Part shown: one piece after another, positions 6,687 through 35,302 of the stretch | Numbering within the stretch: the stretch's first letter is position 1 | Layout of the letters: every line of letters begins with the position of its first letter | Source of the DNA: Tetrapyrgos nigripes | Taxonomy: Eukaryota > Basidiomycota > Agaricomycetes > Agaricales > Campanellaceae | DNA length: 64,000 nt | Reading direction: 5' to 3' | Assembly: GCA_013368315.1 (NCBI GenBank) | Contig: JAACJM010000101.1 | Location: 247,909 to 311,908 of the forward strand | Position numbers and translations under genes: made by a program | The notes under the pieces: generated by a model | Database searches by the model: none | The model's input: the letters and a program-made list of their open reading frames with translations, nothing else | Told to the model about the DNA's origin: nothing

Positions 6687-9600
6687 CTGGGCTCTAGCCT
6701 CCACTCTGTTCTATCCTCTTTCCTTCTCAACTGATAATATTCTCCAAGATCCTTGCCTTACTCCTCATTGCCACCAGTGCCACTCAGGCTCAGGCCTCAC
6801 CTATCCAAAGCCAAATTGATGTTGTTCTTCCATGAATGGATACCCTGTCTCCCTTTAACCCTTCGCTCTTTAAAGACCTCAATGTCTCCAGAGGGCTAGA
6901 ATACCACTATTACGCAGCTCCTGCTGATACTGGGAAACCTACCCTCCTCTTCCTTCATGGATTTCCAAGCTCCTTTTATGATTGGCACCACCAGGTCTCG
7001 TTCTTCCAAGATAAGGGATATGGATTAATCGTGCCAGACATGCTGGGCTATGGAGGTACAGTGAAGCTGTTGGATCTTGAGGCGTATGCTTCAAGTCTCA
7101 TCAGCAAGGATATCGTCAATATCTTGGACACTGAAAGGATTGACCAGGTGACCGTGGTTGGGCATGATTGGTGAGTCCTACTTTGAGGACATCCACTATA
7201 ATTCAGGATGATTGTTGACGCTGCTACTTGAACGAATAGGGGATCAAAAATCGCTGCATGTCTTGTAGATTACTTTCCAGAGTGCTTCCATGCCTTTGGA
7301 TTCTTGGATGTAGGATATATTGCTCCAATCATCTTTGCTGCTCTGTTCAATGATACCATGGCTGCAGTGAGTAAATATTTCACTTTTATCTTATTAAACT
7401 GAAGTGGCATGCTTATGCACATGTATATTATGAGGCTGAATGAAATGAGGATGAGTTGTTTACACTGCATTTCTGGGCTTGTTAGCAATGTTGTGGGCAG
7501 TTTTTTAAAAAAGAAAAAATAAATTCCAAAAAGGGAAGAGGAGGAAGAGGAGGAAGAAGGAAGAGAGAGTTTGGTATGTACTTACTATATGTACCAAAAT
7601 GACACTCTATTGAGAATTTCTGAAGGGTTCCGAGCCTCAGAAGAGCTTAGTGCAAGCTCACTGCAGACTGAAACACATGAGACGTGGCATCACACAAAAA
7701 ATTGGTAGTTTAATCCTCTTTTGGTCATGGTAACTGGGTAGACCAAGTCACTGGCTCAAATAGCAATCCCAAAAAGGATTTACTCAATTTTTCATGTCAG
7801 CAATGGCAGTGTCTGGTCTTTGCCTCAGAGCACGTCACTGTGTATGCGTCATCATTGGCAGCTCTCTTCTACTTTGTATACCTGCTGGCTGCTGAAGCAG
7901 TCAGTGTACCCACTCTGAACAAACTGGAAAACCTGGTGTTGTCCAACACACACATCACATACATCTATGGGGGCCTGGGGGCATGTTCTATATGTATGGA
8001 ATGTACTAGGATGGATTTAGGTGAGTGGTTCTAATGTACAAGACAGCTATCATTAAATTGCAAGATACTTCTTTGCAGCCACTGTCAGAATGTCATTGCC
8101 TGCATCACACTGCCCACACTGTGTCTGTGGTTTGGACACAAACTGCATACACTTCCTAGTCAACTGATTACACACTGAGCATGTATGCTGGCACCTATAC
8201 CAAGCATTTGCTCCATTGCAATCTCCTGGTCCTCTCCCACATCTTTGACAGTGATGACGTTGACAACTCTTTGGCTGTGGTTTTGGGGGTTGGGAACTAA
8301 GGACACATTGTTGGCTGATCCGGACCACTTTTGAGAGATGTGGGCGAGAATTTGAGGTTGAGATTGAAGTATTTGCTTGGGACAAGGAGGCTGAGTTTGT
8401 ATTACTGTCATGTAGACGGTCAATCTGATGTGTAAATAAAGCATTGGCAATCACATGCCCCATTTCAATGTCTGGAATATCAACGAAGCCCTGAGTTACT
8501 TCACACTGTGTCAAAAGCTGATCAACGGCATGAATGATCATTGTTGCATGCTTGGGATCACGGGTTTGCTTTTTGATAGATGTAATGGCCTCAAACGCCT
8601 GCGCAATTGATTGTTTGATATTGCTTTCTTGACCAGTCACCCATTGCAAAGTGTGAGAGCCGTTCCGATAGCTAAGGGAAGAAAATGTATTAGTTATTAA
8701 CCAGTATACATGAGGACCAAATCACTCACCTTGTAGTAAACATTGTCATCTCTATCCACACAATTCATTCCATAGCTTGGCAGCATTTGGTCCCACCTTT
8801 CCAGAGCCTAGAAGGAACTCACTGGGCCATTCTTTGACAAGAGTATTGAATAGCTGACACACCTTCACAGTATGTGCTAGAAGGATTGCTTTTTGGGTGC
8901 CCTGTAACTTTGCAAGGAACCCCTGCCTTTGCTTGTTATGGACTCCCTCAATGAATTCACCCATTCCTGATGCAACTCGAATGGATTCTGGTATCAGTAG
9001 GACACCCATTTTCTTTTTCATCTGCTTGTAGAGTTTCCCATTAACCCATGCAAGCGATATTGACAAGTCAAGGGTGATCTCAAGATCTTGAATATTGTTG
9101 ATGAGCCAGATAGAATCATGTCCTTGGTATTTCTGACCAACCTATAAAATGCAGTCAGTGTATCTGCTTAAAAAATGTGTAAGTCATCATGTACCAGAAG
9201 ATTGTGCCACAAAATGAACACTAGAAGGCAGGCCTTCATATGCTATATTGATGATCCCTGAGTAGGCATCCAAGGCTGCAAGTGGGTATGAACTCCACCC
9301 TCTACCATATTTGTACCCCATATACATCGCCAGATGGGGAGAGCTCCAGCCCTGTAGTCCAGACCAATGCAGTAGTAGAGAGCAATTCCAGGTGGGTCTG
9401 AAACATATCCATTGCGAACGAGATCTAAGATGTTCTTTGCAGTCTCCCAAGTTGATGAATTAAATAATGGCAGTTGAGTTTTTGTGTCCTTTGAAGGACC
9501 AAATTTGGCAAAGACAGCATGTACATGAGAGTATAGCTCTTCGACAGGAGGGATAGTACAATGACAGTGATGCCAGAGCCACTGAGGCATGAACCTGAGC

Positions 9601-11068
9601 ATATCCTCCCATTTGAGGTTTTTGGTGTTTAGCCATGCTTCAATATGGTGCTTGTCATTGGGGTGAGGAACAAACATTGCATCATGGAGTACTTGAGCAA
9701 AGGGAATGCATAATCCATGTGTATGAGAGATGTACAACATATTGAACACATGGAAGGCATCTTTACACACTCGGGACTGAATTTTGCTTTGGCACTCCTG
9801 GCAGGCAGGTCCTACTGACGCAAATGCAGCTTCACATAAATGAGTACTGTGCTTGTCTCGTTCAGCTGCATCTACTCCACCCAAGATTGTAGTAGAATTT
9901 TGTTCCACAGCATGATCCATCACTTCTGTAAGACAGCTGCAGTCATCATCCACATTTGGAGGCACTATGTCTGGTAGAGGTGGATGATGTGGGCATGCTA
10001 ACTGTACAGATGAAAGAGATGCTGGTGCAGGAGGTGATGGAAGTGAGTTTGTAATTTGGAGATATGTGCGGCTACATGCTATATTGAATGGTGTTGGCCT
10101 GAAGTCGGTTAGAGGCATCTTCTCATGCAAAGTCATTTTGGCAGCAGGTACAACCACCTTACGTACTTCAACAACTCGTCATGATGGTGTGATATTCAAC
10201 TTTTCGACTTGCTGGACTGATGTAGGGAGTAGTATATCATGAGCCACAACCTTTCTATGATCAGCACTGAGAATAACAACCTTGGTTCCATCTGGTGCTG
10301 TTTCACTGACTGGTTCAGGAGTTGATGAGGAGTTGATCTTGTTATACAGTACCAAGCTCACATACACATCTATCGCAGCATAACAGAGTTGTGCAGAAGT
10401 GAGCTGTTCTTCATTCCAATTAGAGCTAATACATTCACCATTGTTCTTCTTGAGGCACTGGTGGAGTAGTACAGCAGTAAGGTCTTCAAGAGAAGCGCAA
10501 GCCTCGGATATGAGGAAGTGTTCCTTGGCAAATGAACTGAGCTCCAAACCTCCAGAAAAGGTGTCACAGCCAGCTTCCTTTGCAAGAGCTTGCAAGTCAT
10601 GATTGACACCACAAATGACTTTGATGATGTGCTTCTCATGCAGAAAGATGATAAGCTGCTGAGGAAGACTTTTTGATTCAACATATTTTCTGATCTATGC
10701 CAGATTGTCAGTACTTTCTCACTGAAAAAATTTATGAGGTACCCATACCTGAAGAACAAGAATCTCCTTCTGATATGCTATCCACATCACTGCAATAGGT
10801 CCATGTCCAACAACACGCTCTCCTGGTCCATGGTATATATTCCATTCAGCATCTATTCCAGATACAGGCAAATCATCCATGATTACTTGAAGAGCATTAT
10901 TAATTTCAGCTACTCCACTTAGGGAAGTTAATGGGATCTTGACATCAGGAGGTAGAGTGAAAAGAGGAAGATGTGAATGTTTCTAGATAGGAGTGACACC
11001 TTTCCAAAGAGATGGGAAGCACTCTTCCAGCATGGGTTTGTCTGACATGTTGTCAGTGTATATGAGCT

Positions 11069-11582
11069 CAGGTTGTGAGTGTATCACAAATCTTATACTC
11101 ACCTAGTTCTCTGGTCTCTTGAAAGGAAGAAGAGATGAGGGGAAGTAGAGATAGGACTTAGGTTGATGAAGAAGAGATGCTTGTAGACACAAAAAGATGT
11201 TGTTAAGTCTGAGTCCTACTGGCTCAGACACTACAGCTTATATACAAGTACACTAAGACCCCAGGCACTGTCTAAGACCCCTGGTACTTAGCTGACTGAT
11301 GTGCTGACTGATACAACTAATACAGTTTACATGGATAAAAGGATAAACTACATAATAATAATGACACAGTAATACATTAGATGGGTAAAAGGATAAATGA
11401 CTCATTACTGATGATCAATAGATCATTTAAGGAAGGAGTCTAGACAATGGGTCTGGAAGCTATGATCTAGATCAATCTATATGGAGCTAGCCATGTGATA
11501 AGCTCTAAAGCAGTCATATGATAACCACATGTCACAGAGAATAGATCACAATACATGAATAGGGGTAAAGACTGTAAAAACA
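11069..11582 (-). mobile_element. Solo LTR (Copia-like) inserted in the exonuclease gene
   Basis: This 514-bp insert is flanked by GAGCT on both sides (11,064-11,068 and 11,583-11,587), a 5-bp target duplication. Collapsing the duplication brings the disrupted reading frame together in phase (SLKL|IYTDN). Read on the minus strand, the insert starts TGTTTTTACAG, carries a TATATAAGC promoter-like box and has a TTGTGATACACTC stretch near its end, as in fungal Copia LTRs. It lacks a clean CA end. There is no internal coding region, so it is a solo LTR. Confidence 0.7.
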
Positions 11583-13097
11583 GAGCTTCAAGGACTGGCT
11601 CATCTCCTTGAGAGCTGGAGTAAATTGTGAGTGTGCTTTGGTGGCCACGAAATCACATATGTGCAACTTGCCAAACTCATTGGTCAGAGAAAGGTTACCA
11701 ATAAATATGGCAACACCATCAACTTTGGCAACATGTTTTGCAAGCTAGTAAAGTGAGTAACTCATTGATACTCACTGAAGTATAATACTAACCTTATGAC
11801 TATGATCAATTGCTCCAATTTGGCAGGAGAGCATACCTGTATGCTGATTGAGAGTGTCCTTGTGTTTCTCAATAAATGAGTTGAAGACATCTTGGAACCA
11901 CTGTCCAGTAGGAATGTAACCATGAAATCCATCAGGGGACAAGTCTTCGAAGGGAGGAAAAGGTATATATTGGATGCCAGGGATCCCTTTTCGACAATTG
12001 AGTGTCTGAAGGTATTGAAGCTTGATCTCATCATAATGTCAAAGGTGCTGCATGCAGAACATATCAGTGACCTGATGGGCACCCATGCCATTCTGTATGC
12101 ATGAGCACAGGATCCCTAGAGCTTGAAGAGGTAGCCTGCTCCTTGTTGTCAGGAGAGCAGGAAACTCTGCCCTTAGTTCAGCAGGAAGCCTAACCATAAT
12201 CCGACTATGCCAGCTACAGAATTCGCATTGGCATGTTCTGCACCTGTAGCTCCACTCAAAGATCCAAAAGCAGCAGTCTACATCAACAATATGCCATGGA
12301 CACTGCACATGTCCATCCCTGGTAAGAGGATGATTATGTCCAGGAGTTGGACAAGTGATGCTCTTGCCACCAAGAAGAAGCAACAGATTCCAAAGAAAGA
12401 ATGCTGGAATGAAGAGGTCACTGGGGCAAAGGTTGACTTTAGAGAGAATGAACCAGATGTTTTTTGCAGGAGCCAGAACTGGCCTGAGACATACACATCT
12501 GGTAATCCATTACATTCACTGCTAATCTGTGTGAGTGCATTGTCGAGAGCAGACTGGAACCATCTTGGGTATGGCTGATGTTGGTTTTTATGAGGATTTT
12601 GGGTACCTGACTTGCCAGCTATGCTGTCATGCTCATCGTCATCATCATCCTCACTATCTTCAGTACCTAACCCATTGGGAGCCAGAGAATACAAGTAATC
12701 CTCTGGTGTGTCTTCTTCAAAATCGACAAGATGCAATGCAATGTCATTAGTAGGGTTAACCAAAGGAATGCTGGATTGCATGTGATGAGGAGGATCCTCC
12801 TCAGCCTGCAGTTCCTGTACACAATCAAAAGGTGATGGATGCGATGGCAATGATGTAATAGGATCAGTAGAGGAAGAAGGGATACTTGTTAGATGTGGGT
12901 TATCTTGGATCATGTCTTCCTCTGGCTGTAGTTGATTTACAGACTCAAGAAGTGGCAACAATGACAATGATGATGCGATAGGAGGTGTCACCAAAAGAGG
13001 GAATGAAGATGGAGATATAGACATAGTTGTTGATGGAAATTGAAGGATGTGTGCTGGTGCAGCTGTTGATGTGGGCTGAGACAAAGCTGAAGCAGCG

Positions 13098-13576
13098 TGT
13101 TACAATTTCTCACCCCTATTCTATAGGACTCTCTGACTCGCTCTTTCTTTTCTTTTCTTTTCCTTACTTTGTTTCATTTCTTCTTATCTAACACATGTTT
13201 CCCTTTCGTTTGCCATGCTCTATCCTTGCTTTCTTTCTTACATGTGTAGTACACATGTCTATTATTACTTACATATTGCTTACATGCATCATATGCATGT
13301 TTCTTATTAGTTACATGCTGTTTGACACAGCTATTACAGATGATTTACATTCGTTACACACATTGTACTCTGACTCGTAGTTACAAGATATCCTTGTATA
13401 TAGGTAGAGTACTCTTTGAGCTAGATTCCCCAGCTTGACCTTATACATCTTTCTACAAGTCTTACTTTGAGTAACACTCGTCTTCAGAAGTCTTGCTCAA
13501 ACCTTTCTTTGATAGAAAGGCTCAACGAACAAACAAACAAAAGGCGAAACCTTGAAGTACGACTTCTGTCATAACA
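13098..13576 (+). mobile_element. Solo LTR (TGTTA...TAACA type)
   Basis: This 479-bp sequence has perfect short inverted ends, TGTTA and TAACA. It is closely related over its whole length to the interrupted LTR at 54,691-57,092. Its flanks CAGCG and TGGCG may be a diverged 5-bp target duplication. Counting one copy keeps the surrounding exonuclease-gene frame open (HLPA|ASALSQP). No retroelement coding region adjoins it. Confidence 0.75.
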
Positions 13577-14861
13577 TGGCGGGTAGGTGTCCTGAATGTT
13601 GGAGACAGAATACTGGCTGTCCAGAGGAGCTAGGCTGGTTAACAAGCTCACTCCATGATGCTGTAGACGAGCCAGTTCCCGGAACATGCTGCAAAAAAGG
13701 TTGAGTAATTATAAAAACACAGAAAGGAGGATAAGAAAGTAAAAAGTAGAATAAAGCTAAAAATGAAGAAAACATGACATACCAGACCAGAATTCGCATT
13801 ATAAGATGTCCTTTGCCACTCTGGGACCTTTCTAGGTGCCCTCTTTTCTTTTTTGGCACACCTTGGGGAACAGCAGTATCACTGTGTACCATCCCAACTT
13901 CCCCATCTGTAAGCTCAATAGTTCTTGCCTTCTTGTTCTTGGAGCCTTTTGGGTGGCCAGGACATCATTTAGGGACAAGTAGAAGTACAGATTCTTCAGA
14001 TTCTTTAGGTAGTGGTGCTTGGGGAAAGGACTTCTAGGCGAAACCTTGAAAACTGAATGAAATGTCTAAGGACTCAGACATCAGACAAAGATTGGAGGGA
14101 AAGATAGTATATTGAGGCAGTAGATAGCAATAATAAGAAGCTAGAAGAGCCAGGAGAATGTGTCGAAACATGTCTTAACATTTGTGGAGGTCCTGTCATG
14201 TTCACTGTTGATGAGATGTTAGATGGGTTCTGATATTCAGTCCTCTACTGGACAGACCACATGGCGACTACCAAAAATGGATGTATTATTAATATTCGCT
14301 ATTGGTATCGCTATTTGCCCACAACACAAATAGCAAGCCTTTTTCTGCAGGTGGCTATGTCAATTACGTCCTGACTTCTCCTGACTGTCTCTTTCCGCAG
14401 CCCCTCTTTTGTCTGGCTCTTTTCTGTTTTAATTCTGACAGCTTACAGGGTTAATGAAGCAGCAACTATTCAGCATAGGGTGACTAGTCAATAGAGCTCA
14501 CCAAGTAGAGTGCTGAAGAGAAAGCTAGTAGAGCTTAGATGTGAATTGCTTGAAGAGCAGATAGAACTAGATATTGTTCTGTAGTAACTGCAACTTTACA
14601 GAGAGCTTTTATACTAGATAAAGAGTATGTAATTACTAATATCTACATCGTCCATGGACATACCTAGAGATGAAGAGGATATTGCCATTGGCCATATTGC
14701 TATCTACAGAGATATCACTACATTGTAAGAGATAAGAGTAATGTCCAGAGAATGTCCTGGAGGACTAGCCATACTTATAACTACATAGAAGTTTCATAAT
14801 AACTCCATATAGAATCATAGTTACTATACATGGAAGGTATATATTTCAACAAGGGTCAAAT

Positions 14862-15875
14862 GTGTTCCTTTCAATCTCCTTTATCCCTCTCTCATACCAC
14901 CATGAAGCTCTTTTGCACATATTTTCTGTTTGCTGCTCCATTTTTACTTTGGTTATGTGTAAACTTGGGCTTGATTACTTCAACTCCAATCCTGCCATTA
15001 CAGTCAGTCTGAGTGTTCACAAGCGCAGCCAGGCAGACTGCGCAGATTTCGCTCACCTAAGTTTCCTCTTCCATTCTGGCTCTAGTCTCAATTTTACAGC
15101 GTTTCTCTACAACCAGCCAATGTTCCTCAACATTTACAGCACATCTCACTCCACACTAGGTGTCAATGACTTCAATTGCCGCCTTGCTAATCCAGTTGCA
15201 ACTGATGTAAACCCATGCTCGTCCAATTCCAGAGATTTTGTCTGTGATGCTTACTGCTTGGGCTTCTTTGCATCTATCCTTGGGTATATGGCACCTGTCT
15301 ATAATGAATCAAAGCTTCTCAATGTTTCTTATGCTCCTCCATGTAAACTAGGTCTTGAACACAACCTTGCTGTTTTGGTTATGCCTCAGGAGAACTCATT
15401 CCAATTGGCTTGCGGAAATCTTGTTCATGTCAGAAGTTCTTCTTTTTCTTATGCTTCTATTCTTGGTTCCCATCACAGTGTGCCATTTCATCATCTTGGC
15501 TCAATGTCGCTCTATGATTGTGGCTCAACGCCACTTGATGACCACAGCTCAACGTTGTTTTACTATGCCCATGATTCAATGTCTCTTTATCATTACAACT
15601 TAATGTCGTATGATGATCAGCTCTCAATGTCCTCGCTGTACATTGGTTCTATCTTAACGTTGTATATCAGATATCATATCAGGGTTGTTCTTTCAGTTAC
15701 TCAGATGCTTTTTTATCATCAGATCCATCTTATGCTGGCATGCTCACTCATTCTCTGTCCCCATACATGTATCACTCAGCCTTTCATGGGGTATTATGGG
15801 TCAGAAGAAGAGACGCTGGCTTTGAATTTGAAGTTTGTGATCCTATTATCAGATCCAGTGAAGAAGGGGATGTAA
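14862..15875 (+). other. 337-codon open frame inside element A, not recognised
   Basis: This is the longest open frame in the window by simple length, but I recognise no domain. The composition (many Ser, Leu, Tyr, His) and the imprecise repeats of a short CTCAA-type motif around 15,480-15,620 look more like low-complexity DNA than a protein. An overlapping short frame from 14,902 would begin with a hydrophobic, signal-like stretch. It may be captured cargo or chance. Confidence 0.15.
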
Positions 15876-16986
15876 ATAATGGCTATGGGAGGACTTTCAT
15901 ATGCAGAAGTATATGTACTGGTTAAACTTAATATTTGTATTGGAGTTTTTTAGTACCAAGAAGTTTAACAAAATAATGTGTACATTAAAACTGGGTCTAC
16001 GATGGCCTCGTATTTGCCACGCTTCAGCGCTGGCCCACACCCACTTCATTTAGTCTAAAGCCTTCCTTGGCTACGAGAATTTCGGGTTCTTCGATTATCT
16101 AGCTCGCGATGGGACTGATCAGGATATCGTCGACCACACCGAATCCTTCTGGGACATATGGTACATCAACGATAGACGTGTTGCCACAGGTGATTTTGTC
16201 ACGCCTAAGGTAGGTTTTTGGATTTATCTACCTGACAAATGCAGGACTCATTCTCAATTGTCTTTGCACCGATTGCAGGAACGAGCTTTCCAGACCGAGT
16301 TCTACAATCAGAATGGTTGGACAGCTCCTCTAAACTGGTACAAAATCATCATTGGCGATGTTGACAGGGAGGATAATAAAAGTCAGTAGTTTCTCGATGT
16401 CTGCTAGTTATAGCCCAGTAAATGCTCATCAATTCATTCCTAGGAATCCCTCAAGAAAACACCTTACCCCAAAAGCCTGTCTTCTTCGGCTCTGCAAGCC
16501 GCGATTATTATTCCCTCTCCGCTTTGTGGTTTGAGTTTACTATCACATCAATGGGCAGCAACGGTACATTGACGACTCGAGAGTACAATTCTGGTCATTG
16601 CGTTCAGATGCAAGCTAAGGATGAAGCTAATAAGGATCTTCTTCAATGGATTGAAGGCCTTTAGTTGAGCAAATGCTGATCATCGAAGAAGGATGTCGTT
16701 GTTGAAATGTTTAAGTTACTAGTACTTCTACTGGTTTCTAGACTCGAGTAGTACTACAATAAATATAGTGATGTTTGGTGTTTCCTTCAAGGAATTTGTG
16801 CCACACTTGTTGTGCACATCGTATTTCTTCCCCCATTTCATTAATGTTTGCCATTGAAAACTTGAGGATAGGTCAAAGATGTTGCATAGAAAAGGCGGGT
16901 TGTCGAAGAGGCTCACGATATAGTACTTCATTAAAGATAGCGTACTGACGATAGGAATAGGTTGAGGATTCGGCAAATAGTATCTA

Positions 16987-17264
16987 TGAAAGAGGTGTAG
17001 GCCAGCGCCCAGGCGTGGCGAGTACGCGACCGGAAGGAATCAATAATGTCGAGAAATAAAAATACGTAGCTTTAGCCCTAAGTAGAACACTGTAACAAAA
17101 AATCTAGTCTGACTCTTTCGACCTGTATTGCTTCCGCAGTCCGGACCATGACCCGGATTATGGACCAGTGGACAAGTCATATGCGGATGGGTCAAAGGAA
17201 AAAATCAGAAACAAGAGCACGGAAAAATTCAGGAACAACTCAGCCTCATTCTTCGGCCTTGTAA
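16987..17264 (-). mobile_element. Helentron-like element, copy B (278 bp)
   Basis: Read on the minus strand, it begins TTACAAGGCCGAAGAATGAGG, as in copy C. It ends with CGTACTCGCCACGC, the hairpin GCCA-CGC-(CTGG)-GCG-C-TGGC and CACCTCTTTCA. The next base is T, and there is no flanking duplication. Between the ends is non-coding sequence only, so it is a short non-autonomous member of the family. Confidence 0.75.
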
Positions 17265-17599
17265 CTTTTAGATAAATCCATTATACCAATCTTCGATCTC
17301 CCAAGCTCTTGAACGCCACCGTATCCTTTACTGCGAACAATCAAGGTATTCTCTTGATCCTGTCTTATGACAGACACAGTGAAGAATATATAGTTTTCAC
17401 TTTCTCCCGCATAGCCCCAGGCAAGTAGATTGAATGCCGAGAGGCACTTTGAATTTTCGGAATTTGGAGAATCAAAACTTGATTGGACAACCAACATCAT
17501 GATTCAGAGCGGTGGTGCGATAACTCGGTGCAGATACGTAGCTCAGACGGATTCGGGAGATATCACATCCATGATACCATGTGCTTCTCTGGATGCCTC

Positions 17600-17818
17600 T
17601 GAAACAACGATGGTAGTTTTTAGAGGAAGAAACAATGATACGAGAAGTTTGGAGCTCTGAGCTCAATTCCACTGATAGCTATCTGTATTCGGGAGTGGTG
17701 GAGGTGATCAGGCATCTTGGCCGGGACGGCTTTCTAAGTGGTGAAGATATAAACCAGTTTCTGAGCTCCGTGGTACTTCAAAAACCCGCAGAGAATTTCC
17801 CTTCGAGTGAGTAGTACT
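17600..17818 (+). other. Conserved coding-like stretch upstream of the peptide gene (fragment)
   Basis: The frame reading REVWSSELNS, SYLYSGVVEV, HLGRDGF and SGEDINQF is preserved between this copy and 29,120-29,300. Most changes are conservative, which suggests it once coded for, or still belongs to, a protein exon. It is followed by a conserved GTGAGT that could be a splice donor. I do not recognise the family, and the frame has no clear start. Confidence 0.3.
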
Positions 17819-18728: not shown

Positions 18729-19365
18729 TTTGTGCTAATACGAGGCTAGCTCTGCTGAAGAGGAAATCCGTAACGAGGCCTTGTTATGTTTAGGAATCAT
18801 TTGGGCGTAGGGCATGTAGCCCGGTGGGGAGAAGAAAGGTATGTCGGCCATCCTGTACGGTAGGGCTGTGGTGGTTCCCTGTTATTCTACCATCACTTAC
18901 GTATAGGAGGGTTTTCATAGTCTACCTGCGGTATGCCCCAGCCGCACTTGTATCAGGGAGGTTTTGGTGAAGGAAGCTGCCAGTTTAACTTCCATGTGGA
19001 AACTGCCTTGTTTACGCCGTCAATGAATTCTGTTAGCACATCGATATCATGGATACTATCAATATCTATCGAAAGTTCGCTGGAAGCAGGTACAATCTTT
19101 TCAATGACAGTCAGCAGGTCTGAGATCCAAGTTCGCTTTTTCGCTCTTGACAGTTTAAAGCTTTCTTCGACATCCACTCGTACATAAGTGTCCGATGGAC
19201 GCCGCAAGGCATATTGCAAGAATTTTAGAGCTAGCTGCATACGCCGATAGGTAAAGGAATCGATGCAGACTTTGGGCGCAGTTTTGCGGAGTTTGAAAAG
19301 GATAGCTAAAGGGCCAAGGCCTAAAGCCTACAGCCTTCGGCAAAGGCTGCTTTCGGGTTGTGCCG

Positions 19366-19448: not shown

Positions 19449-19467
19449 TCGGCTTTAGCGCTCAATC

Positions 19468-21082: not shown

Positions 21083-21315
21083 TTACGAGGCCCTTTTAAG
21101 GGACTCGTTCCTACAAACCTGCCGTTTGCTGTGTGGCTATGCTGAAATGGTCCACCGGTTCGGTTACTTATCTTTTGCATTCCGATCCCGATGTCGGCAA
21201 TTGCCATATTGTCTTGGCATCAATAATCATTCAGTCGGCACACCATGCCGGTCTCATCACGGTTTACAGGGGCTCGTTATCGTGCCACGCGCAGCGATGG
21301 CCCACATTTCCCTCG
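21083..21315 (+). mobile_element. Helentron-like element, copy D (233 bp)
   Basis: It begins TTACGAGGCCC and has the 3' hairpin GCCA-CGC-(GCA)-GCG-A-TGGC followed by CCACATTTCCCTCG. The flanks GGGGAGG|TTGGG correspond to GGGGGGG|TTGGG at the empty site near 25,087-25,097. It therefore inserted with no target duplication, immediately 5' of a T. Confidence 0.8.
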
Positions 21316-24512: not shown

Positions 24513-24569
24513 TAGTCAGCAGTACTTACACGGGATAATCTTGCTGCCGAACATTCTTTTTCAATTGTA

Positions 24570-25170
24570 AAATGTAACTAGGCAGAATGCCGAGTTTTCC
24601 TATGATTTAGGTTGTACAGATGATATGAGTACTAAGTGATATCCTTGAAAAGCGTTTGGATAACGAGACAACGTAAAGAGATTGATCACCACTCAAGAAC
24701 CCGCCCTAGTACCACCAGTTCTTCCGCGATCTCGCTATCTTACATACCCCAACTTCCTTCCTGCCCCTCGATCTTCTGGTCTTCCAACCTTTCAGCCGAT
24801 GACATGATGATCATTCGCATTCTAGCTTCCTCTCGGTGCCTTCTCTCCTTCCCCTTCTTCTTATTTATCCCGAAATATCTCTACGTTACCTCCGCGTCCT
24901 CATTACATACTCGCTATTCCCATCTCCCGCTGTACACCTTCTGACAGCCAAAATGAATGATTGTTCTCGGTCTCATGCCATACTGACTGACGATTTCTCA
25001 TCCTTTCAGACTCTCCACGATTCCCGACTTTACAAAGCCGCGTCAAGTGATAACCCAGGTCGAGAATATATAGAATAGAAACGAGATGGGGGGGTTGGGT
25101 ATACGACAGTAGAAGATCACCCAAGGACTCGGAAGCAATCAGCATAGGCCTTGGCGTTTTGTTTGGGGAT
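24570..25170. repeat. Glyoxal-oxidase-flanking block, copy 2 (empty-site copy)
   Basis: About 0.6 kb just downstream of glyoxal oxidase, repeated from 20,287-21,385. It lacks the two MITEs and element D found in copy 1, so it records the pre-insertion state of three sites. Divergence between copies is mostly transitions. Confidence 0.85.
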
Positions 25171-25236
25171 AGAATAAGAATATGAGAGAGGAGTAATTGG
25201 GAGGGAATCCGGGGGTCTAAGGCCGACTAAACCAAA

Positions 25237-25906
25237 CTAGGGCTGATCACCATACTGTATCGAGAGCTTGGTGGATAGGGAAATCCCGTAAGTAAGCGTA
25301 CCGTACAGGGGTTCTCTAGCCGACCCCTTCATCCTCAGGACCTTATTCCCATCTTCTCTATCTTCCACCTCATACACGTCTCGAGGTGGTGATGGATCTT
25401 CGAGGATGCTTATGACGTGGACGTCAATGTTAACTTCAACATTGGTGAAGGCTATGTTTTGGGCTTCGGTTCGGTTCGGTTCGGAAGGAGGTGGTGTTGA
25501 TCATGCTTTGGTTTTAGCGGACGAAGTCTCGGGGTGCCGCTATATAATTATGTCTCTTGTCGTTATCATATCGTAGCGTGTCCGGACCCGAGGGGGTATC
25601 GGAATTGCGGTCCGGTACACTCCGAGAGATGGGTCGAGCAAAGGAGAGAGGAAAATGAGCGACGAGATGAAGGTAGGAGTATTGACAGGGACAGTGGAGA
25701 TGTACATCTTGGTCTATAAATATCTATAACAATCAGTCTCCGAAATGCCTGGTAATCGCAGCACATGCAAACTCACCTAGTACTCTGGTTCTCAGCTTCA
25801 CGTTACAGTCATCCCCCAGCCCGTCTTTCTCATTTCTAGATCTTCGCCTTGGTGCCCTGGTCCAATCTTGTAGCTCCTCGCGTAACTCTGCCTCTTGACG
25901 TTCCAT
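25237..25906 (-). CDS. Partial gene, unrecognised protein
   Basis: Two coding-like pieces lie on this strand. An exon with ATG at 25,906 (MERQEAELRE, basic RRRSRNEK) runs to a GTGAGT donor at 25,776. A last exon from about 25,455 to the stop at 25,237 reads NVEVNIDVHVIS, EDPSPPRDVYEVE and GTLTYGISLS, with natural protein composition. I could not fix the junctions between them, and a GGTTC microsatellite at about 25,465-25,485 sits at the second exon's border. The family is unknown. Confidence 0.35.
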
Positions 25907-26291
25907 CACCAGTGTAGGAAGAAGAGAGACACGTCGTAGCTTTACACCTATATACGTTGACCCAAGAAAAACACCGATTATGCATACAGTGTGGTATACG
26001 CTCTATCCGGTCAAATTCGTCATCCAAGGCCAAACGCCGGCGCGCCGCGTAAAATAAAGAAGATGGAAGGGTGATTAGAAGGAAAAGGGGGCTGGACGTT
26101 GGACGCAGTGATAGAAGAATTGGGAGGAATAGCACTGGATGGATGCATGGGGAGGGAGAGCAGGGGGTGAAAGGGGGAAGGGGGAAGGTGGTCATGGACT
26201 GGGAGTTGTGAGAGATTGACAGCAACCCTGGCATAAGAGTCCGAGACACGTAACGGTGATATCTGATAACTTATCAGTCTACTGTCACTGA

Positions 26292-26520
26292 TATAAAACC
26301 CGGAATACACACCGTCATGAAGGTAGAAAAACTCCCTTTACATTCTTCATATCGCAAATTCCGACCTTAACATTCCTCCAAATCTCGTCGTCTTCTCGTG
26401 TCATACGATTTCACGCTTCCCTCCAGAACCATGTCGTCTCTCTGGTCAAAATTCGCCTACACTTTCCCGGCCTTCTCTTCATTCTCGTTCCCAAATTCTG
26501 ACCACTGTGATTTTGTCTGA
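26292..26520 (+). other. TATA box and 29-codon open frame
   Basis: TATAAAA at 26,292-26,298 is followed by a pyrimidine-rich leader and ACCATGTCG at 26,428-26,436. The frame is open to a stop at 26,518-26,520 (MSSLWSKFAY..., 29 aa). It looks like a promoter with the first exon of a truncated gene, or a very small gene. Region 26,520-27,700 holds other short frames on the minus strand (for example 26,675-26,863) that I cannot assign. Confidence 0.3.
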
Positions 26521-27710
26521 GTGAACGATAGACGTTTGTTTTTGATGAGTAGTCGGCGTAGAAGAAACGGTACACGGAGCTGTGCCGTGTGCAATGACAT
26601 GACACGGGACAGAAAGATGGATGAACGGAGGGGGTCAGGTAGAAGGAAAGACGTGAATGTATCGTAAACCATTCTCAACACTCATATTCCAATATCCAAC
26701 TTGACTGGTTTCTCTCTGAAACACGAAACGGAGACGAAAATGGAGGACAATGTGAAGGTAAGATGGAAGGGCCGAGTGTCGCAGTAGGAGAGTGTGGACG
26801 TGTCGCCCACGCAGCGGAGGCTGAGCCTGATACGAAGAGGGAGGGTTTGTGGAAGCGTGCCATGTGTCATTTGTCAATGGATGAAGGGGGTTGTGAAATG
26901 GGAAGGTAAGGAGATGCAGATAGAGACGGGGAGGACGGAGGAGAGTCAACGATTGAGGCGCCTTGTGAAGAGTCTTCAGTTAGTTACCTCGACAGGGATA
27001 TATTTTAATGAAGACGAACTCACCTCAGGCTTAGAGCGACAATGCTCGTCCTGAAGTCCAGCACTCAGCTCACCCTACAGTTCCCCAACCGAGGCTCTAA
27101 CAAGCAAATTCCTGACTAGCAGCGAACGGTACGAGGTATGGCACTGGAAAGGGTGTCGCAGACAGCAGCTGAGGGTGTCCATAAAGGGAGCAGTGCTTTG
27201 GGTTAGGCGACTGCAAGGTTCTTGTTCTTCTGACGAGATTGGTTTCTACTGAGTCGAGCAAATGCTTGCTCTACAATGTCCTACTTCCTTCTGAGTATAT
27301 GGGTCAGTAAAAGGTGAAAGAGACCCAAAGTGGAACGAAATCTCACCATATCCAGCTCTTCGCAGTCCCTTTCTCTCCTCAGCCAGGTCTCATGGCTTCT
27401 CATAGCCAGCACACACGGCGGCAGGGTGAGAGCATTCTCAACAGGCACGTGATTTCCTCAATTTTCGTCCGTGATTTCGGAGGTAGCTCACCGGGTTTGG
27501 AAGCTGATATAGACCGGTGTACTGCGACGAACATCTGCAGTGGTTATTAAAGATCCCATCGAATCTGTTGAGGAAAACTAGGGGAAGGTTGGTACAGCTG
27601 CAAGTTTCAAAGGAACTCTGCTGCTTATCTCGTTATGAAATTCCCCTCATACAGCCTTGAGCTTTGGGTCTATTTGCACAGTCTCACAAGACACTCACTC
27701 TCCTTTTACC

Positions 27711-28543
27711 ATGGACGGTATTGTACAGACTTCCTCGTATCAACAACACTCGTCTCTGTCCATCTCTTCTTCTCAAGAATGCATCAGCCCGGATGACGCG
27801 GGGAATAACCCGGCATCGCACTCAGTCCTTGAAACGGACACAGTCCCTTCAGACTACGAATCCGTCAGTGTCAATTCGGAGGAGAGCTTTGAGGATTACA
27901 CTTCTGGCGAGTTCACAGAAGCAAATGAGAAGCCAATTGAACGAATTGTTGTGGCGTGTGTCATTTGCTTTCTCTTTATGTACATTGAGCTTATTTCTGC
28001 GCTCCGCTGCAGGATGATGATTCATTCATGAAACGGGTAGCAGACGTGATCAGCACCTCGGTACAAAACAGCTTCGGGGACTTGGAGAAAACTTTGGTGA
28101 CTATAAGCGGAGTCATGGAGGTATTGATCAAGCAGACGGAGGTAAGGTTGAGCGCGTTGGAGCAGGAAAATAAGGAGTTAAAGAAGGAGTTGAGTGAGAC
28201 TAAGGCTCAAGAAATGAGGGATGAGATGAAGGAGATGGTGACGAGGTTGGAGATTTTGGAGAAGGAGAACAAGGAGGTGAAAAGGGAACATGTCATGGAT
28301 TCCACGAAATTGATTTCTACCTTCGCAATGAGCAAAGACGATCTGAAGGAGGTCTTGAATGAGACCAACGCGGAGAATAGAAGGATCACCACCATTGTAG
28401 ATCGTCTTGACAGGAGCTCGGGATGGGACTGCCCTCAGCTTGAAGATCTGAACAGCGAGCAGAGACAGATATGTGAGCGGAGTAAAAAGGAATGGAACGA
28501 AGAATGGGCTAAGCAGCGCCTCCTATATTATTGTGCATGTTAG
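27711..28543 (+). CDS. Coiled-coil protein, hypothetical
   Basis: Exon 1 (27,711-27,947) starts at ACCATGG and is Ser/Thr/Glu-rich (DYESVSVNSEES). Exon 2 (28,013-28,543) follows an intron with a weak GTTGTG donor and a TGCAG acceptor. The predicted protein is 255 aa. Residues about 110-190 form Leu/Glu/Lys heptads (ALEQENKELKKEL, LEILEKENKEVKRE) typical of a coiled coil, probably for dimerisation. There is no signal peptide and no other domain. The junction is inferred from frame continuity. Confidence 0.55.
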
Positions 28544-28778
28544 ACTGATAGTGAGTAGGGTAACGTCTTTAGCTCGGAATTTTTGTCGCAGGTGCATATT
28601 AAGACTTTACAAAAGCGAATTGAAGTTGCCGATTCCGAAAGCTTAAAAATTATAAGATAATGGGACTTGTAGGTGCAAAGGAGGAAGAGACTGAGTGTAA
28701 TAACTGTAGTCTATGAACGATAACATAAAATGAGCCGAGAATGATATAACGTAGTAACTACGGTGGCGTTTACTAATT

Positions 28779-28814
28779 GTTCGCAGTAGGGGATAGCCTG
28801 ACCCTACTGCGAAC
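28779..28814. repeat. Perfect 13-bp hairpin
   Basis: GTTCGCAGTAGGG (28,779-28,791) and its exact complement (28,802-28,814) surround a 10-nt loop at the upstream border of the peptide-gene block. A single related ACTGCGAAC lies at the border of copy 1 near 17,330. It may be an insertion scar or a transcript-ending structure. Confidence 0.6.
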
Positions 28815-30347
28815 TCGGAACAGTTGAGGTATCCTCCTGATCATGTCTCATAGCACAGTGAAGAATATATGGATTTCACTTGTAAGGCTCCCGCAGAGCC
28901 CCGGCCCCCAGGCAAATTGATTGAATACCGATTGGTTATTTTGAAAACCGAGAGCCAATAATTTTACGAACTGCGTTGAGCGCATCTCCTCTTAGAGAAT
29001 CAAAACTTGATTGGACACTATGCCGATATGAATCAAAGCGGTGGTGCAATGACTCGGTGCTGATGCGTAGTGCTCAGACGCGTTTGGGAGATATCACATT
29101 GATGATACCATCCACTTCTCTAAGAATAAAAGAATTGTGGAGTTCTGAGCTCAATTCCTCTGGTAGCTATCTGTATTCGGGAGTAGTCGAGGTGGTGAAG
29201 CATCTTGGCCGGGACAGTTTTCCAAGTGGTGAAGATATAAACCAGTTTCCGAGACCCATGGTACTTCAGAAACCCGCAGAAAATTTCCCTCTGAGTGAGT
29301 ACCTCTCATCTCTACCTATATAGCCACTTATTGATTTGGCCTTGAACTTTCAAAGAAAAGAACAGAAATGCAGCTATTCAACACTCAGAAAGCTTTCACC
29401 GCAGTTGCCCTCTTGACAATTTCCCTCATGCTAGTCATTGGGAAGGCAAATGCGAAGCCAGTCACTGATAAGCCTGGTAAGTGGTTCTATGAATACCATC
29501 AGATTCTAGCATCTAATTATGGAGATCACTGCTTCCGTGTGCTTGTAGGGTGTGTATGCACAGGCCTGGATTGTACCGCAGGCTGCTAAATGTACCACAT
29601 AAATTACTTCTCTCTGTCTGGAAATTGTATAAAGTTAGACAACTATTCTACCTTATTTCATGGAGACCGGATAGGTACCAAAGCCATATATTTATACTTA
29701 CTTCTACAAAGAATGAGAAGCACACCGCAAAAGGTAGACTACAATTCAGCAGTAAGTGGTCATGTTTTGAGGAGTTTATTTCTGAATAAGTATAGGAAGT
29801 ATCGAAGGTTGGCCTTCATACACAAGATTTTGGACACGCTCATTTGCACAGACAAATAGCAAAGATAGGGGCTACGAGAACGCGAGCTGATACTTAATTT
29901 TCTCAAGCTCAAAAGAAATCGTTGATCTGATGCGAGGGGGATGGCTGCTTCAGATTTGGGCTCAGGTTTATGGTGCAGTAGAAAGACGGGATCTTGGAAG
30001 CGTTTAGAGGAGAACGGAGACTTGCAGGGTAGAGAGAAGGACGCAAAGATCTGCCCTCAAGTACCGTGTTCGGCGAAAGCTGAGGCACGTCTAAGTATTT
30101 CGAGTCATCGACGCGTCTGCGTTCTTCAGCTAGCTCGTCCTTCCCATCGCCATCGCCAGACCAGATCTACATCTCGAGTTGTTCATTTTGTGCTAATACG
30201 AGACTAGTTCCGCCAGGAGGATTTGGGCGTGGGGCATGTAGCCCGGTTAGGGGAAGAAAGATATGTCGGCCATGCATCTTGTACGATAGGGCTGTGCTGG
30301 TTCCCTGTTATTCTACCATCACCTACGTATAAGAAGGGTTTTCATAG
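28806..30347. repeat. Duplicated block, copy 2 (peptide-gene block)
   Basis: This is the same block as 17,328-18,925, in the same orientation. The match stops exactly at 30,347, where element C begins, and resumes after element C at 35,139 (TCTACCTGCGGTATGCC). The duplication is therefore older than the insertion. Confidence 0.8.
29368..29589 (+). CDS. Small cysteine-rich secreted peptide, copy 2 (intact)
   Basis: Exons 29,368-29,476 and 29,549-29,589 are joined by a GTAAGT...TTGTAG intron and encode 49 aa. Residues 1-29 are a signal peptide ending GKANA. The mature part would be only about 20 aa: KPVTDKPG followed by CVCTGLDCTAGC, four cysteines in twelve residues that could make two disulfides or bind metal. 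The start is fixed by the signal peptide. A paralogue lies 11.5 kb upstream at 17,884. I recognise no family and assign no function. Confidence 0.55.
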   Translation: MQLFNTQKAFTAVALLTISLMLVIGKANAKPVTDKPGKWFYEYHQILASNYGDHCFRVLVGCVCTGLDCTAGC

Positions 30348-31523
30348 TTACGAGGCCGAAGAATGAGGCTGAGTTTTATACACTCCTTTTCCGCGTGTGG
30401 CTATGTTGCATTTGTGCCCCGGTTTTTTCCGCGCTTCATTCCAATCTCATCCGAGTTGAGTTTCCGTGCAGCTTGTTCATGTGTCCAGTCTGGTGATAGC
30501 ATGACACGGTCATTGAACACGCGTCTTTGAACACGCGTCTTGAGTAACCTTTCCGCGTCCAAAAAAAATTCACACTTTGTTTCATTGACTTTCACATCAA
30601 CTTCCAAATGGCGTTGTGTATCTGTATTGTCTAGTCCTGATTCTATAGCAAGTTCTATGTGATTCTATTGCATCAGTTTTGGATTCTGGAGGACTGATTG
30701 GCAATTGTTCTGGTAGACATAGACCTGAAGGGCTTCATCAGAGTCTAGTATGGGATGTAGATGAAAAATTTGAGTCTACGCTGCATAAATATATTTCTTG
30801 GATAATACTGGAAAAAGAAGAGACAAAACATCATGCAAAGAAAAAGCAATCAGGTAATTTTGTACCTATTGATATGACCAGTCTGGATTGCAATGAAATG
30901 AAGGACAAATCAATTTCAATTCTTTCAGAAGAAACCAGTGTATCTGAACAAGCTCCAAGAACAGAAAGAGCCACTTTTCTTGGTGAAAGTGATAATTTCT
31001 CCTCTATTTTAATGAATGAGCTTTCAGCCACTTTCCAGTCAAACTCATCAAACTACGCTGATATCAGAGATCAAATATGAAGACAGCTTTCTATAATTGA
31101 TCCTGATGCTTTTCCAGATGGGGCTTATGCAGATACGAGCGATGTCCTGCATGAGTTGATGCGGTCAGTCAATCCCACCACTAAGAGAACAGTTTTCTGC
31201 GGTAACAACCACTTCTCGCTTCGGGAGAGGATGCAACACAATCTCCTGTTGACTCGGACTACTGGTACTTATCAGTCAACTCAAGCTTGCGTGTCTCATT
31301 TTGTGGAGCCATGGGCTGATCAATGTCCCTCTTGTCACTCAGACATGCTTCGGAAATACACATTCCAAAGATTCCCCAAATTTTTCCTAATGTCAATACC
31401 TTATGAGTGCAATATGCAGATTCAGAATATCATACATGTGCCTCAAGGAGCTGAGTCAAAACAGTATCACATAAATGGTATTATTTATTTCGGAAATGAT
31501 CACTTCATTACTAGGATGTTTGA

Positions 31524-34500
31524 CAGTGTTCTACTTTAAGGCCTTAAATCGACATTTTGAAATCTTTAAGGCTTAAGGCACTTAAAGGGTTAAATTTAAG
31601 CCATTTTTTTAAGGTTTAAAGTCTCGAAAAAAAAAAAAATTAAGGAGATATTATCGTACTCTAGCCTATGTATTCTTCGTCTGTATCTATCTCTATAGCA
31701 CCGTCATCAAGCCGTTCATCCTCCTCAGCATCGGCGAGAGCCTCCATAAGCGCAGCTTCTTCATTAATCACGGTCCGAGGGAGACGTGCCGGATGTGGTA
31801 AACCACCAAATAACGACTCGAGCTTCATTGAAGCGGGTTTTGTGCATCTTGGCATAGACTCGAGCACAGCTTGCAGTCGTGGTAGGCTAGTCAAATGATC
31901 AGAATCAATGTCCAAGTTCCATTCATCTATATTTTCCTGCCACTCTGCCTCTCGTGCCTCTGTAATCCATTTGGCCATTTCTATGCGCCAGCTTTCCACC
32001 GAATTCACAAGAGCACGTCCCCGCTCTGTCTCATCCTCATCATGTAGATCCTCCAGAAGATCACTATAACGGGGGACAGCAAGGAGCTTTGCAACAGATG
32101 ACTCCCTATGATTTTTGCGAGAGGTTCTGGGCTTGAGAAGGCCAGCCTTCTGATTCTCGTATCTGATGTCAGAAGAGACCTTAATTAGAGTTCAAATCAG
32201 TTGAATTCTAAAAGGTGAGTACTTTAAAAACATACCTTTGTTTGTTTCTCGATCTTCAAGAGTCCAAGACGATTGCGGCGAGGAGATTGTGTAAACTTTG
32301 CTCTAGAAAAGGTTCGTTCACAGCCGGCTTGATTCACAATAATTGTGAAGATGTTGATTGCAAATTGCGCTAGGTCTTTGACTTCATCGGATTGTAGGTA
32401 TGTGTTCCACCAAAAAATCGGATCATCGCCCTGTTCAAAGCTAATTCAGAAATGTTTGAACTCTGAATTATTGAAAATATTACCATAGCCTCCCTGAATT
32501 CCTGTCGATCTTCAGGTTTTGATTCGAATGGTGACGTAGAAGCAAGAAATTGAAAGAAAGCTGTGGAAACCTTCTTTTCTTTGAGCTTACGCTCATCGGC
32601 TGTGTCGGTGTTGTCTGGGCGGCTACTCATACGGCGGTAAAGCTAGGATTGCAACAGAGAATTAGCTTCCGAATAGATGGTGTAACAATGCTCACCCATC
32701 GAATAATATTATTAGCTTTGAAATGATCTAGGTTTGCGCGAGGACCAAAGCGTGAAAGTCCTTCCCATGGATTGAGAATTAATGCGGCCAGAAAGAGTGG
32801 TTGATCGCAATCTTTCCAACGCTTCTCAATACGATTGACCATCTCTGTACGGAGCTCAAACTCGGGATGTCCAGAGAAATGTAAATAAATTCCTGCAATA
32901 CTCAGAAGGACTTGATCGGCTCGAGTGGAATCCTTCTGATTGATGTTCGTTCCATAGCAGATAGGCTCAATATCACCGATGACCATCTCGAGAGCATTCC
33001 AGAAAGAATAATCTCGAGTTCCATGTGCATCTTGAATTAAATTACATGCCTTGATTGCCTCATCCTCCAGTCGCTGCTTTTCACTATATTTAGCGGCACC
33101 TACTTGTGCAGCAATGATAGCAGCTCTGGATTGAAGGACTGCAAGTTGCAATGCATCCTTCAAGTCATAGAGACGTACAAAAGCCACGTAATGAGTGGTC
33201 CACCGTGTGAGGTTAGCAACAAGATAGACGAGAATAATGATTTGACCGAGATTACGGTCTGTGCTGATGTTTGCCTGGGCTCCATCAAAGATCTTCCGAA
33301 CTTTTCCATGATTATTGATCCAACCAAGGAGGAAGGTTGCTTCCTCGGAGACCATTCTAGCCAGTTCGTAGACTTTGAAATAGTCCCCGAGTATAAGTTG
33401 GAACTGAATGGATGATCAGATATTGGAAACCAAAGCAGCGGAAGCTTCACTCACCTGATGAGCCCAACACGATGGAAGGATCAAATCAGGTCGTTTTTTC
33501 GCCAGTACCGCACGTCCCTTTTTACTTCCACCATCTGCATCAGTAACAAGGTATATAACTGCACACTTGTAATCTTTCTCCGTCTTCTCTATCATCTTCT
33601 CGAACTGTTCACACTGAGCATCACCATCCTTTGGCAGGGAAGTGACATCCTGGAGTTCGAGGCTATATGACTGAAATTACAGTAGTAAGTTTCATTTCTG
33701 ATTCGTAAAATAGTTTCCTACCTTCCGATCAACATTCACGCATATTGCAGCGATCGAATTCTTCTTAAGATCCTTCCATTGGTCCGTTCTGAGCCAGAGT
33801 AAGTAAGTTAGAGCTTATTCTGCATTTAAAAATATGTAGAACTCACGAGAGTCCTAGAACTCGACTCTTGAGAATATCCCCCAGCTTTATTTTGACCCTC
33901 TTTGCCTCTTTATCAAGTAGACGGCCTCCCAACACTCGCGCAGTTGGCATGATATTCACAGCCTCCTTCCTCAACATCCCAATTAACTTCAACATCTCAA
34001 CGTCTTCAAACAAGCTATCCTTTGATGTCGTTGATACAGCAGCTCGCAGTGCTTGCCGTTGAATGGCCTCCACCTCAAATTTACTCAGCGGCATATCTCG
34101 CGGGGTGTATAACTTGAGTTCTGCCTGCTTGAGCTTCTTTCGTGGGGTAGGATCAAGCTCAGTGGAAGTGGAAGATGACGCATTGCTCAATTCAGAAAGT
34201 TGTCGTTTGAGCTTCGTGGTGGGTTTATTGCTACTGGAGTTTTTGCTCGGCATCTTCTGCTTCTCTGCCTCGGCTATAGCCTCAGCAGAACTATAGGGAC
34301 ACGGATCGTTTCTCTTTGAACCCAGAATGTGCGTAATGAAACATTTCTTTTCACCTCGAATACTTCCAGCTGATGTGCATGCTACAGAAGGCAACATGGT
34401 CATTTTATGCTAACGTGCATTATAGATAAGTGTTACTCACCAGTGTCAAAGGCAGCTTTTCTTTTCTCCAGCTTTGTTGCCTCGTCATCATGTCTTATTT

Positions 34501-34922
34501 CCTCCTCCAGTGCAGCGGCATGCTCTTCTTCATGATGGGAAACACAGCCTTTACACCAGGCTATGTGATGAACAGAGTTTTGCAGTGGTCCTTCGTGAAA
34601 ATAGGCCCAGAGAGGATTTTTGGCAGTAGCCATAGAGTAGGTAGCTTCATGATGGACTCAAATACCTAGTAGCTTCAGGAACTTGTGGTACGATTCTTCT
34701 ACTTTTCGAGTCTGTCTACCTTGGTCTCGCACGCAACTCGCTAGACTATCATTTTTGACTCGCCGCAACTCGCTACACTATCATTCTTGCTCGTAATTCA
34801 CTTGACTATCATTCCTCCGGACCTTAAGGCTTAAAGATCTCACTCGGAAAATTTTAAGCCTTAAATTTAAGGGTATTTAAGCCTTAAAGCTTAAACGGGC
34901 TTAAGCCTTTGGTAGAACACTG
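31524..34922 (-). mobile_element. hAT transposon, apparently complete
   Basis: This 3,399-bp element has terminal inverted repeats CAGTGTTCTAC and a perfect 8-bp target duplication ATGTTTGA (31,516-31,523 and 34,923-34,930), the hAT hallmark. Both ends continue with repeated TTAAGGC/GCCTTAA subterminal motifs that could bind transposase. One gene fills the interior. It interrupts the protease-like frame of element C precisely. Confidence 0.92.
31661..34633 (-). CDS. hAT transposase
   Basis: This enzyme would excise and insert the surrounding element. It starts at 34,633 with a BED-like zinc-finger region (LWAYF, CKGC, HH). A basic linker (TPRKKLKQAE) follows, then a DUF659-like RNase H region (GLSTDQWKDL, YLVTDADGG, CWAHQ) and a C-terminal dimerisation region (FAINIFTIIVNQAGCERTFSRAK) near the end. 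Seven short introns all have GT-AG borders, at about 34,388-34,441, 33,788-33,846, 33,671-33,722, 33,406-33,454, 32,645-32,695, 32,435-32,485 and 32,181-32,237. No stop interrupts the joined exons. With intact ends and target duplication, the element may still be mobile. Confidence 0.85.
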
Positions 34923-35302
34923 ATGTTTGATGGTGCCCATGAATGGGTCTATGACGGCATTGGAACTCTCCAAATGTCCAAGCTAACAATGACGCTCTGG
35001 AATTCTTTGCGCATAAGAAGGCTGTAGTGGTCCTTTATGTCTTTAGCGAAAATGGAATATAGTTTAATTCTTATTTAATTGACTGAACCCTGCGGCCTCG
35101 TACTCGCCACGCGTTAGCGATGGCCCACACCCCTTTCATCTACCTGCGGTATGCCGCATCAGTGGCTGCCGTTGCCAAGCTATTCACATAGACGCTCCTC
35201 ATTGCTTTTCCTTCTTATCACCTTTCATGAGACGTCACCTACATCTGTCAGCGGGACAAAGCACTAGTGCTTCTGAACTGTGGCTGAGATGATTGATAGC
35301 AA

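Follow-up and report, generated by a model that had tools for sequence, protein, structure and literature searches.

Copies of the element family in the window

We analysed a stretch of 64,000 nucleotides from the basidiomycete Tetrapyrgos nigripes (contig JAACJM010000101.1, here C98:247909-311908), called the window below, in which several copies of one transposable element family share their 5' and 3' ends. Judged by these ends, by full-length relatives elsewhere in the genome and by the insertion sites, the copies very probably belong, as non-autonomous members, to a large family of Helitron2-type rolling-circle transposons that was active recently. An earlier note on this DNA had delimited five copies, A, B, C, D and F, and the ends of all five were found again in the sequence at the same positions (Table 1). 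A pattern scan added a sixth copy, F', which is the mirror image of F.

The family termini are TTAY...TTCA or CTCG; the shortest copy bounded by them measures 115 bp and the longest 9.6 kb. The genome searched comprised 98.46 Mb in 587 contigs. The 5' motif TTAYRAGGC occurred 5,215 times, against 1,868 for the reversed control pattern, and the 28-base 5' end of the type seen in copy C (C-type), with up to two mismatches, was found 324 times against none for its reversed control. The pattern of the 3' hairpin gave 686 matches and a pattern blind to the stem gave 487, both against none in the reversed controls. The stem-blind pattern consisted of the asymmetric terminal inverted repeat (ATIR) GGCCTCGT, 20-30 bases, CCCACA, 4-7 bases and TTCAT.

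The size range given before for the window copies, 0.2-8.6 kb, is correct for the distance between the ends, and the values for A (8.6 kb) and C (4.8 kb) are inflated by nested transposons of 6,864 and 3,399 bp. Copy A lies in a 66-nt GT..AG intron, read from the sequence (7,367-7,427 and 16,049-16,053), of a gene that we read as hydrolase-like; the single exon of this gene that was scanned had no Pfam match.

A palindrome of 99.3% identity (51,220-64,000) extends to where the contig ends; its arms measure about 6.4 kb and its axis lies near 57.6 kb. It could be a fold-back artefact of the assembly or a true inverted duplication. Since both F and F' lie inside it, they represent one insertion at most, and the reading of the two as separate insertions was discarded. 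Their 200-bp flanks are 99.5% alike, and the pair was perhaps doubled by the assembly.

Autonomous elements with the same ends

The earlier note had proposed a search for autonomous Rep-helicase copies with the same ends, and three were found. The element on contig C418 (15,477-23,874; 8,398 bp) has ends of the type seen in copy D and one open reading frame (ORF) of 2,578 aa, whereas those on C83 and C46 (9,465 and 9,621 bp) have C-type 5' and 3' ends and ORFs of 2,639 and 2,625 aa. The ORFs of C83, C418 and a further contig, C132, were scanned against Pfam. DUF6570, Helitron_like_N and PIF1 were recognised in the C418 ORF, and DUF6570, the Helitron Rep and a PIF1 helicase in that of C83. The C83 and C418 proteins both contain HxH and Walker A motifs and are 55.6% identical over 2,291 columns. 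Over 7,709 bp the C83 and C46 elements have an identity of 99.6%, which rises to 100% in the first 221 bp, and their flanks differ; they are therefore two separate, recent insertions.

A Helentron in the strict sense has an apurinic/apyrimidinic (AP) endonuclease fused to its Rep-helicase (RepHel) protein (PMC4067079), and Helitron2 has a RepHel without the endonuclease (summarised in PMC4067079). No AP endonuclease was detected in the C83 ORF (Pfam, E up to 0.05) or in the C418 and C132 ORFs (searched in two pieces each, E up to 0.01). What we found is thus a single RepHel ORF without endonuclease, as in Helitron2. The C418 Rep also matched subunit B12.5 of RNA polymerase (E=0.0032), which was taken as chance.

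Helitron_like_N had at least 152 matches in the genome. When 150 listed matches of these 152 were compared with 100 listed of the 324 C-type 5' ends, such an end lay at most 9 kb upstream on the same strand of 15 Reps, in eight cases at 4,023-4,304 bp; none lay upstream on the wrong strand and none downstream on either strand. One of the 15 pairings, on C37 (3,642 bp; a Rep of another length group), may be due to chance. This count supersedes a partial one of 14/95, from which lower-scoring Reps, including full-length ones, and some partial Reps had been omitted. Distances from a hand-picked set of 10 Reps and 9 3' ends serve as illustrations and do not enter the count.

Copy C matches the C83 element at 91.7% over 566 bp, 81.2% over 245 bp and 79% over the first 100 columns, and by these alignments it derives from the autonomous C83/C46 type by internal deletion. 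Copy B is 93.5% identical to the C83 element over the first 31 bp, and D is 85% identical to the autonomous C418 element over the first 60 bp. Copy A matched the C83 element only in its last 45 bp (80%). In the same comparison F matched neither the C418 nor the C83 element; its ends match those of loci L040 and L026.

Empty sites and the insertion site

Empty sites had been reported for C, D and A, and all three were borne out. In the case of A the argument had been that its removal leaves a normal intron. The joined flanks of A aligned with C35:407590-407772 (183 of 183 nt, 95%) and with C103:253565-253742 (87%), uninterrupted at the junction in both; by these alignments the two sites are relatives of A's host intron, and thus paralogous empty sites, which confirms that argument. 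Sites related to C, to D and to L041, a 171-bp copy on contig C2, lie in the window itself (Table 1). The joined flanks of the C418 element matched two places on C104 (99%) and one each on C8 (97%) and C105 (87%), with 179-180 of 180 nt covered; both C104 sites and the C8 site have the length of the query, and the C105 site is 19 nt shorter. For B and F the window yielded no empty site spanning the junction, and a genome-wide search was not made for them. Two further hits were not counted as empty sites, namely one of L034 to the joined flanks of L041 (75%, poorly aligned at the junction) and a partial one of C102 to the C418 flanks (76%). Over the five insertions (A, C, D, L041 and C418) none of the junctions seen showed a duplication of more than one base, in agreement with the absence of target duplication claimed before.

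The base preceding the element was A in 12, G in 8, T in 2 and C in none of 22 copies. With A or G before 20 of the 22, the site is therefore R^T and not T^T. The base following the element had been said to be always T, which was true of 26 of 30 sampled loci; one had A and three had no recognisable end. This figure rests on the 30 loci that were not chosen for T, whereas 14 short loci in the set of 22 copies had been selected for it.

Table 1. Positions of the element copies, nested transposons and related empty sites in the window
Feature	Position	Strand	Details
Copy A, non-autonomous, putatively Helitron2-type	7428..16048	+	1,749 bp without nested transposon
Nested DUF6729 + 3'-5' exonuclease transposon in A, with terminal inverted repeats (TIRs)	7476..14339	- (gene)	6,864 bp; TIRs, joined-flank alignment
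A, 3' ATIR and 3' hairpin	16004..16034	+	ATIR GGCCTCGT 16,004-16,011; hairpin 16,016-16,034
Copy B	16987..17264	-	C-type 5' end, degenerate 3' ATIR, hairpin 17,001-17,019
Empty site related to C	18799..18940	+	junction TTTTCATAG^TCTACC, one T; alignment only 20 nt beyond junction
Copy D	21083..21315	+	D-type 5' end; 5' hairpin ~21,085-21,108; 3' hairpin 21,284-21,301
Empty site related to D	25040..25167	+	83.6% over 128 columns, spans junction
Copy C	30348..35138	+	1,384 bp without nested hAT
Nested hAT-like transposon in C	31524..34922	- (gene)	3,399 bp; TIR CAGTGTTCTAC
C, 3' ATIR and 3' hairpin	35094..35124	+	ATIR GGCCTCGT 35,094-35,101; hairpin 35,106-35,124
Empty site related to L041	54996..55227	+	84% over 236 columns; palindrome mirror 60,225-59,991
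Copy F	56552..56752	+	hairpin GCCACAC/GTGGTGGC 56,721-56,738; 5' hairpin ~56,554-56,575
Copy F'	58459..58660	-	mirror duplicate of F, no independent insertion

Terminal repeats and hairpins

Copy C carries an ATIR pair of 13 bp (92%; 30,349-30,361 and 35,090-35,102), and in the three autonomous elements the ATIR GGCCTCGT stands opposite TTACGAGGCC. The 3' ATIR lies upstream of the 3' hairpin, as in Helitron2, and about 36 bp from the end.

We sampled the 100 listed of the 487 stem-blind matches. Standard pairs filled 663 of their 700 stem cells, and 24 cells were changed on both sides. After 2,000 shuffles of the same sample the maximum of paired cells was 655, and the both-side changes had a mean of 8.5 and a maximum of 17. 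When only the 63 distinct hairpins were counted, 406 of 441 cells were paired. The corresponding shuffle maximum was 404. The compensatory change that the earlier note had singled out in F is real; the same pair, examined in 100 listed hairpins of the 686, was G-C in 57, A-T in 21 and G-T in 10, and it was broken as A-C in 12.

DNA folding gave the hairpin between GCCAC and its 3' partner as the best structure in four of seven ends, in A and B in the form first described and in F and C418 with a shifted bulge. Ten 5' ends were folded, and a 5' hairpin was predicted in six of them, namely those of C418, D, F, L037, L040 and L034 (inner stem only). The C-type, to which the 5' end of copy B belongs, was represented by the C/C83 end.

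Transposons nested in the two long copies

The element nested in A encodes DUF6729 and the exonuclease domain PF01612 (Pfam), has TIRs of about 23 bp and is flanked by an 8-bp target duplication, CATTTCTG/TTTTTCTG, with six of eight bases identical. When the flanks of this element in A were joined, minus 8 bp, they matched the 5' part of L031 continuously (83%, 60 bp), and the same joined flanks were 85% identical to the 5' part of L028 over 60 columns. Inverted pairs of the same TIRs were found at C35:77266/84203 and C31:211933/215789. The C31 pair (C31:211933-215811) has a perfect 8-bp duplication, CCTTGCCT, and no DUF6729 match; the C35 pair (C35:77266-84225) contains DUF6729 and has no clear duplication. 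The exonuclease of the DUF6729 ORF at L054 is WRN-like (E=5.4e-5).

Our literature search found no paper mentioning DUF6729. Dada transposases are of the DDE type, and those of Laccaria bicolor contain a DnaQ-like exonuclease (PMC3706591). An exonuclease is thus common to both, whereas Dada, as described, makes 6-7 bp duplications and is without TIRs, and the element in A has TIRs and an 8-bp duplication. The element nested in A, a low-copy transposon, is possibly a relative of Dada with true TIRs.

Similarly, the hAT-like element in C is flanked by an 8-bp duplication, ATGTTTGA, at 31,516-31,523 and 34,923-34,930, and its gene resembles DUF659 only weakly (E=0.0047), short of the cut-off used by Pfam. 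A role of the hAT gene as cargo of C was ruled out, as it belongs to a nested insertion. Because the nested transposons have their own target duplications, the length of A and C is mostly due to nested insertion and not to gene capture. Both long copies being explained in this way, we would caution against taking the length of a Helitron copy, or the presence of a gene within it, as proof of gene capture.

Class assignment

The family most probably belongs to Helitron2, and not to the Helentrons in the strict sense: its ATIRs, its 3' hairpin and its one RepHel ORF, in which no AP endonuclease was detected, fit the former. The earlier note had spoken of Helentron/Helitron2 elements; the superfamily is upheld by the autonomous RepHel copies with the same ends and by the C418 empty sites, and the strict Helentron part is not, as no AP endonuclease was detected in the three ORFs scanned. 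A strict Helentron, with RepHel fused to AP endonuclease and insertion within TT, would also show subterminal inverted repeats and a 3' hairpin, lack a multi-base duplication and have many short copies, as in PMC4067079. We nevertheless consider it very unlikely, since none of the C418, C132 and C83 ORFs contains the endonuclease and T precedes the element in only 2 of 22 copies, with A or G in the other 20. In addition, there is one T at the junction of the empty site related to C, and the joined C418 flanks, likewise with a single T, correspond to three sites that have the same length.

Even less probable, by a clear step, is a canonical Helitron (Helitron1) with 5' TC and 3' CTRR ends. Helitron1-like Reps are present in the genome (C159 against Helraiser, 7lcc, E=8.8e-51), but the family has the ends TTAY...TTCA or CTCG together with ATIRs, and the C418 Rep had no match to Helraiser at E up to 10. 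The same very low probability applies to DUF6729-exonuclease proteins as the mobilisers of a new transposon class, the alternative that the earlier note had offered and which started from the presence of DUF6729 and PF01612 inside A. Both domains sit in a nested TIR element that made a target duplication of its own, which is why DUF6729 was rejected as the mobiliser, and across the junction of that element the 5' part of A is contiguous with the uninterrupted L031 and L028. Moreover, the genome contains hundreds of family ends but only 11 matches to DUF6729, and a relative on C35 aligns in pieces with the interior of A (from about position 46 to 6,912 of A) and not with its outer ends.

Several observations weigh against the assignment to Helitron2. 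The C418 empty sites were judged by match coverage and length, without the letters being seen, and the joined flanks of the C83 element gave half-matches only and no empty site. A 1-bp duplication of T is indistinguishable from none, because the elements start with TT and a T is present at the site. In Helitron2 as described by Bao and Jurka the ATIR is 20-30 bp from the end, and the distance of about 36 bp found here is slightly outside this range. Folding favoured other pairings in the 3' ends of C, D and C83, and no 5' hairpin was predicted in the folded C/C83-type end (including autonomous C83/C46), in A, in L028 or in L031. Finally, the shuffles ignore kinship, and decay of CpG can mimic paired changes; as kinship was ignored and the changes are mostly transitions, we regard the stem as supported and selection on it as unproven.

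The covariation in the hairpin might indeed be mutational, produced by CpG decay and inheritance within subfamilies and not by selection for pairing, an explanation we hold to be rather unlikely, though far less so than the other classes considered above. The stem changes are for the most part C-to-T or G-to-A transitions, and the sixth pair has nine A-C and four G-T cells as well, its 19 A-T cells falling to nine when each hairpin is counted once. Among the distinct hairpins the excess of both-side changes is also small (14 against a shuffle maximum of 13). Selection for pairing, on the other hand, is favoured by the 663 of 700 stem cells that pair, by the occurrence of A-T in several loop backgrounds among the hairpins listed, and by the 5' hairpin of F, which has T-A in place of the C-G of C418 and D.

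Comparison with known systems and proposed mechanism

This type of element has previously been described in fungi and algae, and a Helitron2 in a mushroom has already been published (PMC12730594). In the Helitron literature, Repbase not being covered, we found no paper on this very family. With the Helitron2 elements of Bao and Jurka 2013 (PMC3627910) the family has in common the short ATIRs, with the 3' ATIR just upstream of the 3' hairpin, the 5' T and the lack of target duplication, reported there for the short Helitron-1N1_CRe family; compensatory changes in the hairpin are likewise published there. It differs in that a 5' hairpin is defining in that account and is absent from the C- and A-type ends here, and in the insertion site, which is TTTT^T/C there and R^T here.

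The FoHeli elements of Fusarium oxysporum (PMC5148889) are also fungal and Helitron2-like, have ATIRs and hairpins and measure 5-11 kb, with reconstructed pre-insertion sites and recent, near-identical copies. Their termini are different (TCAG..ATTTT or TGCCT..CTCCTGT), as is their insertion site, and their ATIR lies 38-51 bp from the end compared with about 36 bp here. Joined ends, pointing to a circular intermediate, were reported for a FoHeli subgroup (PMC5148889). Helentrons and the HINE/DINE-1 elements (PMC4067079) share the subterminal inverted repeats, the 3' palindrome and the occurrence of non-autonomous beside autonomous copies, but have an AP endonuclease and TT insertion, neither of which is seen here. 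The HELPO Helitrons of Pleurotus (PMC4289320) have a RepHel with PF14214 and PF05970, a 3' hairpin and no duplication in common with the family, and differ by their canonical T[C/G]..CTRR/CTTG ends and an ORF of about 1,400 aa.

Here we observed the ends, the autonomous partners, the insertion site, the lack of multi-base duplication and the recent spread, and established knowledge of Helitrons would supply the steps between them. The Rep, an HUH nuclease, would nick at the 5' TTAY end, and the PIF1-type helicase would displace one strand, the transfer of which would be ended by the 3' ATIR and hairpin. Joining of the single strand at an R^T site, probably by way of a circle, would follow, and replication would make it double-stranded. 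Mobilisation in trans would account for the short copies, namely B, D and F as well as C prior to its hAT insertion, because their ends are kept.

It seems to us an even chance that this one genome holds two related autonomous lineages with a common 3' ATIR and hairpin, of which that of C418, D and F has a 5' hairpin and that of C83, C46, C and A lost it yet spread recently. Rolling-circle transposition would in that case not need the 5' hairpin, and insertion at R^T would proceed in the two lineages with no AP endonuclease. With hundreds of ends, several empty sites and autonomous partners with open frames, the family provides a high-copy natural data set on which terminal structures a Helitron2-type transposon needs.

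Other genes and elements in the genome

The region C35:74500-90500 contains two opposed DUF6729 genes in a broken inverted repeat, the arms of which are 97.4% and 90.4% alike. The Helitron1-like Rep of C159 (L009) belongs to a separate length group, with a match of about 540-550 bp, several members of which have TGA stops; this group coexists with the Helitron2-type Reps. A second Rep-helicase group, on C132 (L062/L063) and C5 (L067), has a related ATIR and hairpin (GCCACGCGAAGCGATGGC in C132, with one base changed in C5) followed by another tail. For the C132 element no 5' end could be located.

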